Of a DNA stretch of 42,572 bases, positions 5,146-31,157 are shown piece by piece. Source of the stretch: an uncultured bacterium (GTDB lineage: Bacteria; Cyanobacteriota; Vampirovibrionia; Gastranaerophilales; Gastranaerophilaceae). The notes beneath the pieces are model-generated. The model did not search any database and was not told the origin of the DNA. It saw nothing but the letters and a program-made list of their open reading frames with translations. Within the stretch, counting starts at the first letter, position 1; every line of letters starts with the position of its first letter. The stretch is from NCBI GenBank assembly GCA_902774905.1, contig CACYKF010000007.1, positions 1 to 42,572 of the forward strand. The letters run 5' to 3'. The position numbers were made by a program, and so were the translations under genes.

Positions 5146-5283
5146 ATAACACCCTTTCTCTTTCTGCGCATCTTTGCGCTTTTTTTTATATACACTTCCT
5201 ATAAGTTCTTTATAATTTTACTACAAAAATAATTATATTTACACTTGGCAAAAAAAATATTTACAAGCGTTATTAGTAATATC

Positions 5284-5877
5284 ATGAAAATTGCATGTAA
5301 TAGTAATACGCCCTTTGGAGCAAAACTTATACGAGATAAAGTCAATGTCGGAAGATATGGAAATGACGGCAGATATCATGATTTTGAGTCTAATTTTGTA
5401 GAAATTCAACCTGAATGTGATAACGATGTTGAAGCATTGAAAAATGCAGTCAAATATTGGGAAAACGATAAATTCGGTATGAATGCTTGTTATGTTGTTC
5501 AGGCCGCAAAAAATGGCAGTAAATATTATGTTAATCATAAAGTTTATGCTTTAACTGCGCAGCAGGATAAATTTGAGATATTGAATCCTGACGAAATTTT
5601 GGGAGTAGTGCATGTTGTTCCCCTTGGTGGACGAAGTAAAGAATTATTTGTTGAGCATGTGCAGGCCAATCCTAATTATTTAAACAAAATTAACACAAAA
5701 TATGCCGGAATCGGCACTGCAATGATAAATTCGTTAAAAGAACTTTGTAATATGATGACATTATTTTCTTCAAAAGAAAAATCTGTCAGAGATTTTTATG
5801 CAAAAAACGGTTTTTGTGAATATCCTCCTAACACAAATGCATATACATGGATAAAAGATATATTTGATAGATTTTAA
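5284..5877 (+). CDS. GNAT-like acetyltransferase domain protein with F-G N-terminal motif
   Basis: This is a hypothetical protein of 197 aa. The C-terminal half has GNAT features: a strand VVHVVPLGG, then YAGIGTAMINSLKEL, resembling the acetyl-CoA-binding loop and helix (motif A, [QR]xxGxG/A type), and finally FYAKNGF, the usual 'FYxKxGF' element. The Q/R of the canonical loop is not obvious, so activity is uncertain. The frame is open from a TTG at 5245, but I choose the ATG at 5284. The resulting N-terminus MKIACNSNTPFGAKL matches the opening of two other small proteins here (24806 and 31096, both minus), with Phe at residue 11 and Gly/Ala after it. The gene is divergent from pnp and stands just before tRNA-Arg. 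Confidence 0.75.
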   Translation: MKIACNSNTPFGAKLIRDKVNVGRYGNDGRYHDFESNFVEIQPECDNDVEALKNAVKYWENDKFGMNACYVVQAAKNGSKYYVNHKVYALTAQQDKFEILNPDEILGVVHVVPLGGRSKELFVEHVQANPNYLNKINTKYAGIGTAMINSLKELCNMMTLFSSKEKSVRDFYAKNGFCEYPPNTNAYTWIKDIFDRF

Positions 5878-12269: not shown

Positions 12270-12710
12270 ATGCCATTTCGTTACAGATTGCAGAAAATTT
12301 TGAACTACAGAGAAAATCAGCGTGAAGAACAAAGATTGAAAGTTCAGAAGGCTCAGGCGGCAGTTAACGAAGCAGAAAACAATATTAAGAAAAACAATCA
12401 GGCAATTGTTGATACCAAAAATGGCATGCGCTCTGCAGATCCATCCCTGTATGATTATTATGACAAGTTTCTGAAACATCTTTATGAAGAGGCTGAAAGA
12501 CTTGAACAAATAAGGCAAGAACTTCAGGAAATATTAGACGAAGAACTAAAGAAACTTGTTAAGTGCGAACAGAATGTAAAAGTTCTTGAAAAACACAAAG
12601 ACAAAAATAAAGAAATTTATCTGCAGGAAGAAAAAGCAGAAGAACTAAAGCAATTCTCAGAGTTAGGTGTAACAAGATTTTTCAGAAAAAAGACTGAAAA
12701 CCAACAGTAA
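12270..12710 (+). CDS. fliJ: Flagellar export chaperone FliJ-like protein
   Basis: The 146-aa protein is almost entirely predicted coiled coil. It opens with PFRYRLQKILNYRENQREEQ, the typical FliJ start (FxFrLqkvLdyRe), followed by long Glu/Lys/Gln heptads. FliJ works in the flagellar type III export apparatus, contacting the FliI ATPase and the export gate. ATG at 12270 is chosen for this match; an upstream in-frame start at 12231 adds 13 residues not seen in FliJ. The ribosome-binding site is weak (GAGAGAG). It is followed at 11 nt by a FliK-like gene, supporting the call. Confidence 0.8.
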   Translation: MPFRYRLQKILNYRENQREEQRLKVQKAQAAVNEAENNIKKNNQAIVDTKNGMRSADPSLYDYYDKFLKHLYEEAERLEQIRQELQEILDEELKKLVKCEQNVKVLEKHKDKNKEIYLQEEKAEELKQFSELGVTRFFRKKTENQQ

Positions 12711-12721
12711 AGGTAGAAATT

Positions 12722-13591
12722 ATGGGTATAGAAGCAACTACTTCAGCATCAGCAGCAACTTCGGTACAAAGTACAACTACAACTACGGCATCGAAAGCAA
12801 ATTCATCTGATACATCATTTAAAGATGAAATGTCAAAAGTTTCTGAGTCTGAATCCAAAAAAGATACAAAAACTGCTGATAAGGGCTCAAAAGACCTAAA
12901 GGGCGAACAAAAAACAGATAAAGATGAAAATAAGTTGTCAGTGTCTAAATTGGAAAATGAGCATAAAACTGCTTTGCAAAGTGATGCAGAAAATAAGTTG
13001 CAGGGTGCCGCTGTTCTAAATGGTCAGTTTTTAATGAATGATGCAAATATTATGCTTTCAAATGATATTCAGCAAATGATTGACAATACTGTTTCCGTAA
13101 ACGCTTCCAATCTTAAAAACTGGAGTTTTGGTTTTGGTGAAAATGGTGCAAAATCTGCATTGAAAATGAATGAATCTGATGCAGATTTCTTTATCAACCT
13201 GACTCAAAATGATAATATAAATGTTCAGTCAATTCAGGCACAGGCTCAAAGTATGGTAAATAACGGGGCTGAAATTGCAGAAGTCAAACAAAATGTTCAG
13301 GTTTCTCAGGCTTTATTAAATGCTTTAAGTGAGGCAAGAGAAAATAATCAGCCATTGAGAATTGATTTTGACCAAAATATTTCTGTAATTTTGCGAGTCG
13401 GCAGAGATGGTGCCGTTTCAGCACAGTTCATTCCCGGAGACAAAGCTGTAGAGCAATATTTGAGAAATAATATTGAATCTCTTAAAGCATCTTTTGATGA
13501 ACAGGATTTGCCTTATAGTGAACTTTCATACTCACACAGTTCAAAGGATCAAAATCAAAGACGAAGACAAGAAAAACAACAAGGAGAATAA
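12722..13591 (+). CDS. fliK: Flagellar hook-length control protein FliK-like
   Basis: This 289-aa protein has the two-part layout of FliK. A low-complexity Ser/Thr/Ala/Lys/Asp N-terminal region (first about 85 residues) serves as a ruler in the family. The C-terminal domain at about 195-265 (PLRIDFDQNISVILRVGRDG, then AVSAQFIPGDKAVEQYL) matches the Flg_hook pattern of alternating strands followed by a helix and SxxDEQDLPYSELS. It ends in a polar Gln/Arg tail. FliK measures hook length and triggers the export substrate switch. The position between fliJ and a hook/rod gene supports the assignment; sequence similarity alone would be modest. Confidence 0.75.
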   Translation: MGIEATTSASAATSVQSTTTTTASKANSSDTSFKDEMSKVSESESKKDTKTADKGSKDLKGEQKTDKDENKLSVSKLENEHKTALQSDAENKLQGAAVLNGQFLMNDANIMLSNDIQQMIDNTVSVNASNLKNWSFGFGENGAKSALKMNESDADFFINLTQNDNINVQSIQAQAQSMVNNGAEIAEVKQNVQVSQALLNALSEARENNQPLRIDFDQNISVILRVGRDGAVSAQFIPGDKAVEQYLRNNIESLKASFDEQDLPYSELSYSHSSKDQNQRRRQEKQQGE

Positions 13592-13594
13592 TAT

Positions 13595-14434
13595 ATGAAT
13601 GATGCTTTTATTACGGCATTAAACACCCAATATGCTACAGTAAACTGGATTGATGTTTTGTCTGAAAACATGACAAATACATATACTCCGGGCTATCGCG
13701 AAAAACAAGTTACTTTTAAAACTTTTTTAAACGGAGCAATTGTTGACGATTTTGAAAAAAATAACGGTCAGGGAAAATCTACTCCCGGTACTTCAAAGAA
13801 CAACTTGTTTATTGAAGGTAAAGGTTATTTTTTAACCAAAACTGCCGAAGGTAAAAGTGTTTACACCCGTCTTGGAGATTTTGACTTTGACAAAGAAGGT
13901 GTTTATCGTGCTAAAAATGGCAATACTGTTCAAGGCTACATTTTGAATGATAAGGGAGAAATAATGCAGGGAACAAGAGCATTAAGCGCAGATTTATATC
14001 AGGAAACAGCAATGAAAGGCGGTGCACTTGATATTCCTACAACAACTATCAAGATGTGGATTGACCCAAATAATGGTAAATTTCTCGGTAAATATGATGA
14101 ATATGAAATTAAAAATGACGGAACAATTGTAGGTAAGGCTGAAAGCGGGAAAAAAGTTGTGCCGCTATACAAAATTACCACAAGAAATTTTCATAACTGT
14201 TCGGGTTTATATGAGTACAAAGACGGATTATTCCTTGAAACAGAAGAATCAGGCAAACCTGTTTTGGGTGTAGGTGAAATTCGCTCAGGGTTATTAGAAC
14301 TTTCAAATGCGGATTTAAAGGTGAATATTTCCTATTATCAAATGGCAAAACAACAGATGGAAGTCGTAAATAAGATAATTTCATCAAATAAAGACCTCTT
14401 ACAACAAGCATTGCAACTTGTCGGAGGCTCATAA
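13595..14434 (+). CDS. Flagellar hook/rod protein (FlgE/FlgF/FlgG family)
   Basis: This 279-aa protein has the conserved axial-protein ends. N-terminally, ALNTQYATVNWIDVLSENMT is followed by TNTYTPGYRE, the 'NxANxxTxGYK' type rod motif. C-terminally there is LELSNADLKVNISYYQMAKQ and a final amphipathic helix for coiled-coil packing. The middle has GKGYFLTKTAEGKSVYTRLGDFDFDKEG, the FlgE/F/G core. Length fits FlgF or FlgG better than the longer FlgE, but hook proteins can be short; the subtype is left open. It starts 3 nt after fliK with GGAG upstream. Confidence 0.82.
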   Translation: MNDAFITALNTQYATVNWIDVLSENMTNTYTPGYREKQVTFKTFLNGAIVDDFEKNNGQGKSTPGTSKNNLFIEGKGYFLTKTAEGKSVYTRLGDFDFDKEGVYRAKNGNTVQGYILNDKGEIMQGTRALSADLYQETAMKGGALDIPTTTIKMWIDPNNGKFLGKYDEYEIKNDGTIVGKAESGKKVVPLYKITTRNFHNCSGLYEYKDGLFLETEESGKPVLGVGEIRSGLLELSNADLKVNISYYQMAKQQMEVVNKIISSNKDLLQQALQLVGGS

Positions 14435-24437: not shown

Positions 24438-24806
24438 TTAAAACGGTAAATCGTCATCTTTATCTTCAGTTGACTGCCAATTTGTAGTATAATCTGTCCA
24501 ACTCTCTTTATAATCATTACTCAAATAATTTGCTTTAAATATCTCTTTTAATAAATTCGAATACATCATTAGGTTTGACAGAGACTTAGATTTCCAATAC
24601 TTACCGTTGTCCTTTTTGATACATTCTTCAAATTCATTATCTTTACTGTCAGGTGTCAGAACAAAAATATCATCTTCCCAATGTTTTTGCGTTGCGACAA
24701 TATCATCATTTGATAAAATAAAATTTTCGGTATTATCCCCGACATATTTTCTATCAATTTTGTATAATCCTTGAAAATATGTATTGTTAATAGGACTGAC
24801 TTTCAT
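24438..24806 (-). CDS. Small protein with F-G-type N-terminus and SSB-like C-terminal tail
   Basis: This 122-aa protein has no recognised fold. Its N-terminus MKVSPINNTYFQGLYKI shares the pattern of two other proteins here (Phe at residue 11, Gly near 13, NN at 7-8). Its C-terminus is STEDKDDDLPF, ending in the acidic DDDLPF tip that bacterial single-stranded-DNA-binding protein uses to recruit repair and replication partners, yet no OB fold is apparent. The ATG overlaps the pyrG stop by one base (TAATG), with AAGGAG upstream, so it is translationally coupled to pyrG. The SSB-mimic role is inference; an acidic tail by chance is possible. Confidence 0.75.
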   Translation of the reverse strand: MKVSPINNTYFQGLYKIDRKYVGDNTENFILSNDDIVATQKHWEDDIFVLTPDSKDNEFEECIKKDNGKYWKSKSLSNLMMYSNLLKEIFKANYLSNDYKESWTDYTTNWQSTEDKDDDLPF

Positions 24807-26416
24807 TATTTTTTGCTCCTTTGTTTTAATGCGGCATCAATAAGCCCTTTAAACAGCGGATGCGGTCTGTCAGGTCTTGATTTAAATTCAGGATGAAATT
24901 GGCAAGCGACAAACCAATCAAGTTTTGGCAACTCAACGATTTCTGCTAACATTCCGTCAGGTGACATCCCGGAAAATACCAAACCTGCTTTTGATAATCT
25001 GTCTATATATTCGTAATTGACTTCGTATCTGTGCCTGTGGCGTTCGGAAATAATATCTTTTCCATAAGCCTTATGTGCAACTGTACCTTTTTTCAGATAG
25101 CAGTCATAGGCACCTAATCTCATTGTACCGCCGTAACCTTTTACATGCTTTTGGTCAAGCATCATATCAATTACAGGATTTGCAGGATTATCATCAAATT
25201 CTTTAGAATTGGCATCTTCAAGTTTAAGAACATTTCTTGCATACTCAATAACTGTACATTGTAAACCCAAACATAACCCTAAAAACGGCAGGTTGTTTTC
25301 TCTTGCGAAGCGAATTACATTGAGTTTGCCTTCAATACCTCGAACCCCAAAACCTCCCGGAACAACAACCGCATCAATATCTGATAATGCTTTTTTACAG
25401 CAATCATAATCAACACAGTCTTCTGAGTTTATCCATTTAATTTCAACAGAAGCACTATCGGCATATCCTGCGTGTTTTAACGATTCAACAACCGAAATGT
25501 AGGCATCAGACAATTTTGTATATTTACCTGCAATACCGACTTTAATTGATTTGGTCGGGTTTTTAATTTTTTCAACAAGTTTTTCCCATGATTTTAAATC
25601 CGGCTTTTTATCTTTAACTCCGAGCATTTTTAAGGCAACAGAGCAAAGTCCCTGTTCTTCAAGTGCAAGCGGAACTTCATAGATAGTCTTCATATCTCTG
25701 CATTCGATTACTGCATCTTTACTTAAAGAGCAGAACAAGGCAAGTTTTTCTCTTTCTGTTTTTGGAATAGGTTTTTGAGTTCTACAAACCAAAATCTCAG
25801 GCTGTAAACCATAACTTCTCAATACATTAACGCTGTGCTGCGAAGGTTTAGTTTTTAATTCCCCTGAAGTTGGAAGGTAAGGTAACAAGGTACAATGAAT
25901 AGAAATTGCATTTCCATATCCCATTTCCGCTTTATATTGTCTTATTGCCTCAATAAATGGCAAAGACTCAATGTCACCAATTGTTCCGCCGATTTCAATA
26001 ATGTGAAAATCAGGATTAAACTGTTTTGTCGCCCCGACAATTCTTGATTTTATTTCATTTGTAATATGTGGAATAACCTGTACCGTTGCGCCTAAATAAT
26101 CGCCTTTTCTCTCTTTTTCAATAACTTTTTGATACACACTGCCTGAAGTAACATTATTAAATTTACCCAAATTTGTGTCCGTAAATCTTTCATAATGTCC
26201 CAAGTCAAGGTCTGTTTCCGCGCCATCATCTGTTACAAAGACTTCACCATGTTGAAACGGACTCATTGTTCCCGGGTCAACATTTATATAAGGATCAAAT
26301 TTTTGGTTTATAACGCTATAGCCTCTTGATCTTAACAATTTACCCAAAGATGCTGCAACAATACCTTTACCCAATGAACTTACAACACCGCCTGTCACAA
26401 ATATATACTTTGTCAT
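24806..26416 (-). CDS. pyrG: CTP synthase
   Basis: This enzyme aminates UTP to CTP using glutamine or ammonia and ATP. The protein is 536 aa. The N-terminal synthetase domain starts MTKYIFVTGGVVSSLGKGIV and contains FDPYINVDPGTMSPFQHGEV. The C-terminal class-I glutamine amidotransferase has the nucleophile elbow GLCLGLQ (about 378-384) and CQFHPEF for the His-Glu pair. AGGGG lies before the ATG. Upstream gatC is 43 nt away, and the downstream small gene overlaps the stop. Confidence 0.98.
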   Translation of the reverse strand: MTKYIFVTGGVVSSLGKGIVAASLGKLLRSRGYSVINQKFDPYINVDPGTMSPFQHGEVFVTDDGAETDLDLGHYERFTDTNLGKFNNVTSGSVYQKVIEKERKGDYLGATVQVIPHITNEIKSRIVGATKQFNPDFHIIEIGGTIGDIESLPFIEAIRQYKAEMGYGNAISIHCTLLPYLPTSGELKTKPSQHSVNVLRSYGLQPEILVCRTQKPIPKTEREKLALFCSLSKDAVIECRDMKTIYEVPLALEEQGLCSVALKMLGVKDKKPDLKSWEKLVEKIKNPTKSIKVGIAGKYTKLSDAYISVVESLKHAGYADSASVEIKWINSEDCVDYDCCKKALSDIDAVVVPGGFGVRGIEGKLNVIRFARENNLPFLGLCLGLQCTVIEYARNVLKLEDANSKEFDDNPANPVIDMMLDQKHVKGYGGTMRLGAYDCYLKKGTVAHKAYGKDIISERHRHRYEVNYEYIDRLSKAGLVFSGMSPDGMLAEIVELPKLDWFVACQFHPEFKSRPDRPHPLFKGLIDAALKQRSKK

Positions 26417-30793: not shown

Positions 30794-31096
30794 TTATGAA
30801 GGAATTTTTGAATTTCTAATTGCGCTTTTAAATAGAGAATGAGCAAATTTCATGCATGCTGCACCACCTGCGCTTAAAACAGAACCTGCAGTAGCAAATG
30901 CTCCATCCATGACTTTTGCGGAATAATGAATATGATGAATCGGATCAGATGCAGGAACACTTGATAATGCTCCACTGCCTGACAGTGATGTCCCAAGGCT
31001 TGAGACAATGGCACCGTCACGAATGTCATTTTTTGCGGCCTTTGATATCTTTATTCTTGCTCCAAATGTTTGGTTATTTAAAGTATTTACTTGCAT
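30794..31096 (-). CDS. Small Ala/Gly-rich protein with F-G N-terminal motif
   Basis: The start is the ATG at 31096, because AAAGGAGG stands 7 nt before it; the frame is open further upstream but that stretch belongs to another small gene. The product is 100 aa, beginning MQVNTLNNQTFGARIKI, which matches the openings of the 5284 and 24806 genes. The rest is Ser/Gly/Ala-rich (SSLGTSLSGSGALSSVPASD), with a His patch (DPIHHIHYSAKVMD) and a moderately hydrophobic C-terminal helix (AGSVLSAGGAACMKFAHSLF). No family recognised. dnaA follows 58 nt downstream. Confidence 0.75.
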   Translation of the reverse strand: MQVNTLNNQTFGARIKISKAAKNDIRDGAIVSSLGTSLSGSGALSSVPASDPIHHIHYSAKVMDGAFATAGSVLSAGGAACMKFAHSLFKSAIRNSKIPS

Positions 31097-31157
31097 ACTT
31101 ATTCCTCCTTTACCCTCAATAAAACATGTAAAAATATTTTTTGCTATTAATTCTTGT

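Follow-up and report, generated by a model that had tools for sequence, protein, structure and literature searches.

A short tag shared by the N-termini of otherwise unrelated proteins was found in the Gastranaerophilales (Melainabacteria), starting from three genes in a stretch of 42,572 nucleotides (contig CACYKF010000007.1, assembly GCA_902774905.1), here called the window. The source genome belongs to this order and comprises 2.0 Mb in 51 contigs. The tag is real, N-terminal and modular, it is selected as a peptide, and it is confined almost wholly to the Gastranaerophilales. It is bipartite, with M-[KQRN]-[VI]-[NS]-x-[IV] followed by a variable linker and then by [NST]-F-x-[GA]. The probability that it is a lineage-specific N-terminal short linear motif, read by a dedicated but so far postulated cytosolic receptor, was put at roughly 45%.

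An earlier note on the window had described three small proteins with a common start, and had suggested a sorting, secretion, tethering or processing signal. That the tag is a modular signal is strongly supported by its enrichment at N-termini, its conservation among orthologs, the synonymous drift of its codons and its restriction to one order, whichever of the four functions it may serve. Its occurrence on otherwise unrelated proteins was borne out on a larger scale than had been noted, with dozens of carriers. In a search of the open-licence literature, no tag of this kind was found described for these bacteria.

Enrichment, conservation and range of the tag

The sampling took in about 45% of the source genome and portions of roughly 20 related ones. 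Genes were called in 842 kb of the source genome with a home-made codon-based caller, from which the start sites were also taken. The consensus comes from 43 tagged proteins, 2.4% of the 1,798 genes examined in the order, which were picked by hand; by extrapolation there are perhaps 40-50 copies per genome. In these 43 proteins residue 2 is K, Q, R or N, residue 3 is V or I, residue 4 is mostly N, S, D, Q or T, residue 6 is mostly I, V or L, and residue 8 is often N; the hydrophobic residues of the first element are the V/I at position 3 and the I/V at position 6. The second element, [N/S/A/T]-F-x-[G/A], lies 0 to about 40 residues past the first, across a flexible linker that is rich in N, S and Q, low in acidic residues and highly variable in length. 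The Phe of the tag has a median position of residue 13 and stands at residue 19 or earlier in 75% of cases. The three starts in the window, MKIACNSNTPFGA (5284, +), MKVSPINNTYFQG (24806, -) and MQVNTLNNQTFGA (31096, -), were confirmed as given in the earlier note, and each matches its pattern M-[KQ]-[VI]-x4-N-x2-F-x-[GA] exactly; the fixed spacing in that pattern did not hold beyond them and is a special case of the variable one.

N-termini were compared with internal and shuffled sequence using a strict regular expression, M[KRQN][IV][NSDAQ]x[IVLP] followed by F[GKTQE][GA] by about residue 36. It matched 12 of 738 called proteins at the N-terminus, against 0.07 expected from residue shuffles and 0.21 expected from internal Met residues. 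An F-x-[GA] near the N-terminus was 9 times likelier given an M[KRQN][IV] start (Fisher p 1.3e-7, the three proteins of the window being included in the count). The expression had been tuned on the source genome, and other genomes were therefore used for a cleaner test, in which a DNA pattern that combines a ribosome-binding site with a start and the tag was scanned with its mirror (the same pattern reversed) as control. Sixty genomes of the order yielded 26 matches, and the mirror yielded 0; when the scan was extended across the phylum, the 85 genomes of the family yielded 47, again with 0 for the control. Of 46 distinct matches in the order, 41 were in frame and free of stops, a share that chance would put at one third (p 5e-15). 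Looking alone could yield three short matches within one window; the 47 matches against 0 in independent genomes and the in-frame excess nevertheless make a chance resemblance next to impossible, and it was rejected.

Conservation was followed in several families. An alignment (A1) of six lipoprotein-like proteins shows no change at 15 of residues 1-16, variation with insertions and deletions over the following 22, and then a signal-peptide-like stretch that is conserved again. The L020 family kept the tag in 15/15 orthologs, 12 of which open with MQVNSVS or MQVNSIS, even at 32-36% overall identity to the query, while the linker before the Phe varied with insertions and deletions. Elsewhere the pattern was kept with changed letters, in a tagged GH77 enzyme (MRVLGINNNQITFRRR, MRVLGIDNRIAFQRR, MYINRINTYAPQKVSFQRR), a 1996-residue protein (MRINRVNNCTAFTG and MKIYSINLFTQNFTG) and an EF-hand family (MKINAVGYQNFTG and MRITAIQNYHTNPNFYG). 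Codon pairs inside the tag of orthologs gave 79 synonymous and 5 nonsynonymous differences. Codon use in the tag is ordinary for the genome, with Ser encoded by both TCN and AGY and Arg by both AGA and CGT. Since the tag is kept in orthologs while flanking residues change and codons drift synonymously, it is the peptide that is selected and not the RNA. A signal in the RNA, such as a translation enhancer or a binding site, might account for early A-rich codons (GTA for Val) being somewhat favoured; given the free synonymous variation, the use of both Ser boxes and both kinds of Arg codon, and the predominance of synonymous changes between orthologs, it was rejected as highly improbable.

Within the same phylum the DNA pattern gave 5 matches in 109 genomes outside the family, with 3 for the control. 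Outside the order, 74 genomes of the class gave 3 matches, one containing a stop, one unconvincing and one genuine-looking (G079, MKINPIVSQSTPRFSG). The strict tag pattern was also scanned across 84,980 species. Most records returned were named Candidatus Gastranaerophilales or Melainabacteria, and 21 of 27 matches were N-terminal tags in Gastranaerophilales or in unnamed or doubtfully named gut metagenome-assembled genomes; the remainder were frames in Streptococcus and Lacticigenium that lack the element, and two RecF/SMC-type ATPases with a first strand similar to the tag. Tagged genes were also seen in metagenome-assembled genomes labelled Muribaculaceae and Heliobacteriaceae (L226, L228), which are possibly mislabelled or contaminated with Gastranaerophilales.

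Carrier proteins

Pfam and NCBIfam scans found a known domain in few carriers, most being without a match. Only 3 of 43 scanned tagged proteins reached the Pfam cut-off (GH77, sigma-70-like and AAA+), whereas 15 did so among 20 untagged proteins of comparable size drawn at random (p 8e-8). Carriers cluster in the genome, with 11 tagged pairs within three genes against 2.6 expected (p 0.0005), and several are membrane proteins. Structure predictions for the GNAT-like protein of the window (single sequence) and for the lipoprotein-like family (six sequences) were unusable by their confidence.

In at least three families (the L217 family; L198 and L199; L194 and L152:1674-2291) the tag precedes an apparently complete Sec or lipoprotein signal peptide, as judged by eye and not by a trained predictor. 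The tag is not itself such a signal: a hydrophobic core within the first 35 residues was present in 1/43 tagged proteins compared with 314/1755 untagged ones (p = 0.004), and this candidate was rejected. The L198, L199 and L217 proteins resemble lipoprotein precursors with an N-terminal extension of 40-70 residues and low-complexity stretches, and in most of them Asp directly follows the Cys.

Two carriers deserve separate mention. The tagged protein of 1996 residues (L014:12274-18264) has papain-type cysteine protease-like motifs, QKQHGMC...NSWG, recognised by eye from the conserved residues, and no Pfam match. GH77 (loci L152:9225-11252 and L161:8718-10682) is present in two copies in most genomes of the order, one of them tagged; matches to the other copy do not start before about residue 24, as though the tag were absent.

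Possible roles of the tag

Because several families carry the tag ahead of a Sec or lipoprotein signal peptide, it probably acts before envelope sorting. The destinations of the carriers differ (signal-peptide precursors, an SSB-tailed protein, a sigma-like protein and an AAA+ protein), which points to a cytosolic step. In the reading preferred here, the two elements of the tag would be contacts for one dedicated cytosolic receptor, which might be an adaptor, a chaperone or a protease adaptor. The receptor would act on newly made chains by reading their first ten to twenty residues, and the mainly lineage-specific carriers would all be handled alike (sorted, escorted or turned over), either ahead of Sec translocation or apart from it; secretory precursors would lose the tag along with the signal peptide. 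A soluble FlhA C-domain-like protein is a speculative candidate for the receptor. A broader proposal, more tentative than the receptor by itself, is that one two-part tag routes lineage-specific proteins, secretory precursors included, through an undescribed receptor pathway, possibly made of a type III gate of flagellar origin and a soluble FlhA_C-like protein specific to the order. An N-terminal sorting signal defines a pathway, and if the preferred reading is true the tag picks out, all at once, many unknown proteins that belong together in function in an uncultured, flagellin-less gut lineage and offers a handle on how these host-associated bacteria deliver or manage orphan proteins. It also yields a testable prediction on the retention of flagellar export genes.

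Several points weigh against the receptor. None was found, and the carriers are without a visible common function. Their signal peptides were assigned by eye, and the tagged sigma-like protein comes from a single gene of a single genome and may be a chance match. One very general role is hard to tell from several separate roles; moreover, only parts of genomes were sampled, with starts from the home-made caller.

The main rival is an unlikely but serious one, namely that the tag is an export signal of a flagellum-derived type III apparatus kept after the loss of flagellin, with the carriers as secreted effector-like proteins. FlhA-type (FHIPEP) proteins were detected in 26/26 genomes of the order, including those of the genus of the window, in which flagellin was absent from 15/16 genomes (the sole match was in a genome with 6% contamination). 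FliE, FliF, FliH and FlhA are present in the source genome, and FliK-like and FlgE-like genes in the window. The rival would also suit the orphan and clustered carriers, the composition of their N-terminal 30 residues (rich in N, S and Q, poor in L, D and E), the position of a soluble FlhA_C-like gene beside the tagged GH77 gene and the proposal that retained basal bodies act as protein exporters in Buchnera (PMC3459982). The tag does not track the apparatus, however: the same FlhA types occur in other families of the class, which have no tag, and the FliK-, FlgE- and FliE-type proteins of the apparatus itself, in the same genome, are untagged. It is likewise found ahead of Sec and lipoprotein signals, on the SSB-tailed protein and on the sigma-like factor. 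The two-part layout resembles the dual signal of flagellar early (rod and hook) subunits, in which two elements near the N-terminus, the first small-hydrophobic and the second based on Phe, are modular across proteins (PMC8983047). That signal differs in its F-x-x-x-hydrophobic gate recognition motif, which lies some 30 residues away from its N-terminal signal (PMC8983047), whereas the second element of the tag is F-x-[GA], at a variable and far shorter spacing, and the residue at F+4 is hydrophobic in 26/58 tagged sequences, close to the background of 42%. The known dual signal was rejected as the identity of the tag on both motif and spacing. Type III effector signals, which are based on composition, are similar to the tag in the N/S/Q-rich, L/D/E-poor first 20-30 residues and in the lack of a Sec-type hydrophobic core; they are unlike it in that the tag has a recognisable consensus and occurs also on cytosolic proteins and on proteins with Sec or lipoprotein signals.

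It is less probable still that the tag acts as a regulated degron or as a leader to be cleaved, recognised by a cytosolic protease or its adaptor, with degradation or trimming of the carriers. On precursors such a tag would permit quality control ahead of translocation, and F-x-[GA] could be a cleavage site. Known N-terminal degrons such as the ClpX N-motifs are short with a Met-basic-hydrophobic start, as the tag is, and lack the Phe-Gly/Ala element that comes second in the tag and its long linker of variable length. No sign of cleavage or turnover was seen here, and there are no obvious short-lived regulators among the carriers save the one sigma-like protein. The remaining alternative, that the tag is part of the fold of each protein by structural convergence, takes as its model the opening strand and turn of RecF/SMC-type ATPases (MKIxxIxIxNFKG), two of which, in Firmicutes (L221, L222), were matched by the strict DNA pattern. 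It is disfavoured and very improbable: the carriers are unrelated, with one AAA+ ATPase and zero RecF/SMC domains in the Pfam scans of the 43, the length of the linker is free within families, and the tag can stand before a signal peptide. Two further kinds of terminal element were compared. Autotransporters may carry an extended signal peptide region, a conserved N-terminal extension before the signal peptide; the tag has a different consensus and is also on proteins without a signal peptide. Encapsulation peptides of bacterial microcompartments are short terminal tags on unrelated cargo and form amphipathic helices, unlike the present tag, which is polar and helix-poor by composition and has membrane proteins among its carriers.

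Tagged genes of the window and flagellum-type export genes

The features of the window are collected in the table below. As the earlier note had held for two of the starts, strong Shine-Dalgarno sequences precede 24806 and 31096. The start at 5284 is less certain because a ribosome-binding site is absent and an in-frame TTG at 5245 is a possible alternative start; a tag there is nevertheless likely, since a paralog elsewhere in the genome (L002) opens with the short tag MNSVSFSG. The tag at 24806 is identical to that of its ortholog (G002) even in nucleotides and is thus uninformative on selection by itself. This protein has an SSB-like C-terminal tail without an SSB domain, and the tail is kept in the ortholog (DDLPF vs DDIPF) despite differing residues before it. 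The N-terminal 43 residues of the protein at 31096 are similar to those of another tagged orphan, L041:14904-15308 (37%, E=0.012).

Table. Tagged genes, their ribosome-binding sites and candidate export genes in the window
Feature	Position	Strand	Basis or remark
Tag MKIACNSNTPFGA of GNAT-like protein	5284..5322	+	Sequence; tagged 29%-identical paralog in L002
Tagged GNAT-like protein, 197 aa	5284..5877	+	Weak Acetyltransf_7 match, E=0.005, below cut-off
FliJ-like, FliK-like and FlgE/F/G-like genes (candidate machinery, untagged)	12270..14434	+	Flg_hook E=4e-6; FlgE/F/G D1 E=8e-10; FliJ E=0.005
Tagged 122-aa protein, SSB-type C-terminal tail (DDLPF)	24438..24806	-	Start overlaps stop of upstream CTP synthase gene
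Tag MKVSPINNTYFQG	24768..24806	-	Sequence; identical in ortholog L044 (81% overall identity)
Ribosome-binding site AAAGGAG of 24806 tagged gene	24816..24822	-	Sequence
Tagged 100-aa Ala/Gly/Ser-rich orphan protein	30794..31096	-	Sequence
Tag MQVNTLNNQTFGA	31058..31096	-	Sequence
Ribosome-binding site AAAGGAGG of 31096 tagged gene	31104..31111	-	Sequence

Three kinds of FlhA were distinguished, a canonical one in families having flagellin, a second one in all families, and a soluble one with a DUF4177-like start and the FlhA C-domain. The soluble protein (L109:9522-11000) has no membrane part and was present in every genome of the order examined; its gene adjoins BamA, OmpH/Skp-like and nucleoside phosphorylase-like genes. 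The tagged GH77 gene adjoins the soluble FlhA_C-like gene in most other genera of the family (read in two loci), an arrangement that may have arisen once and been inherited. The flagellin-less genus retains FliE, FliF, FliH, FlhA, FliK-like and FlgE-like genes, that is, a filament-less export apparatus (12270-14434 of the window; L108, G000:C31). Such partial flagellar gene sets have been interpreted as flagella or as lost motility (PMC3787301, PMC5877343). At 168-1355 the window also encodes an untagged protein of 395 residues with a weak match to Tox-MPTase4, a metallopeptidase toxin domain (E 7e-5, just under the cut-off).
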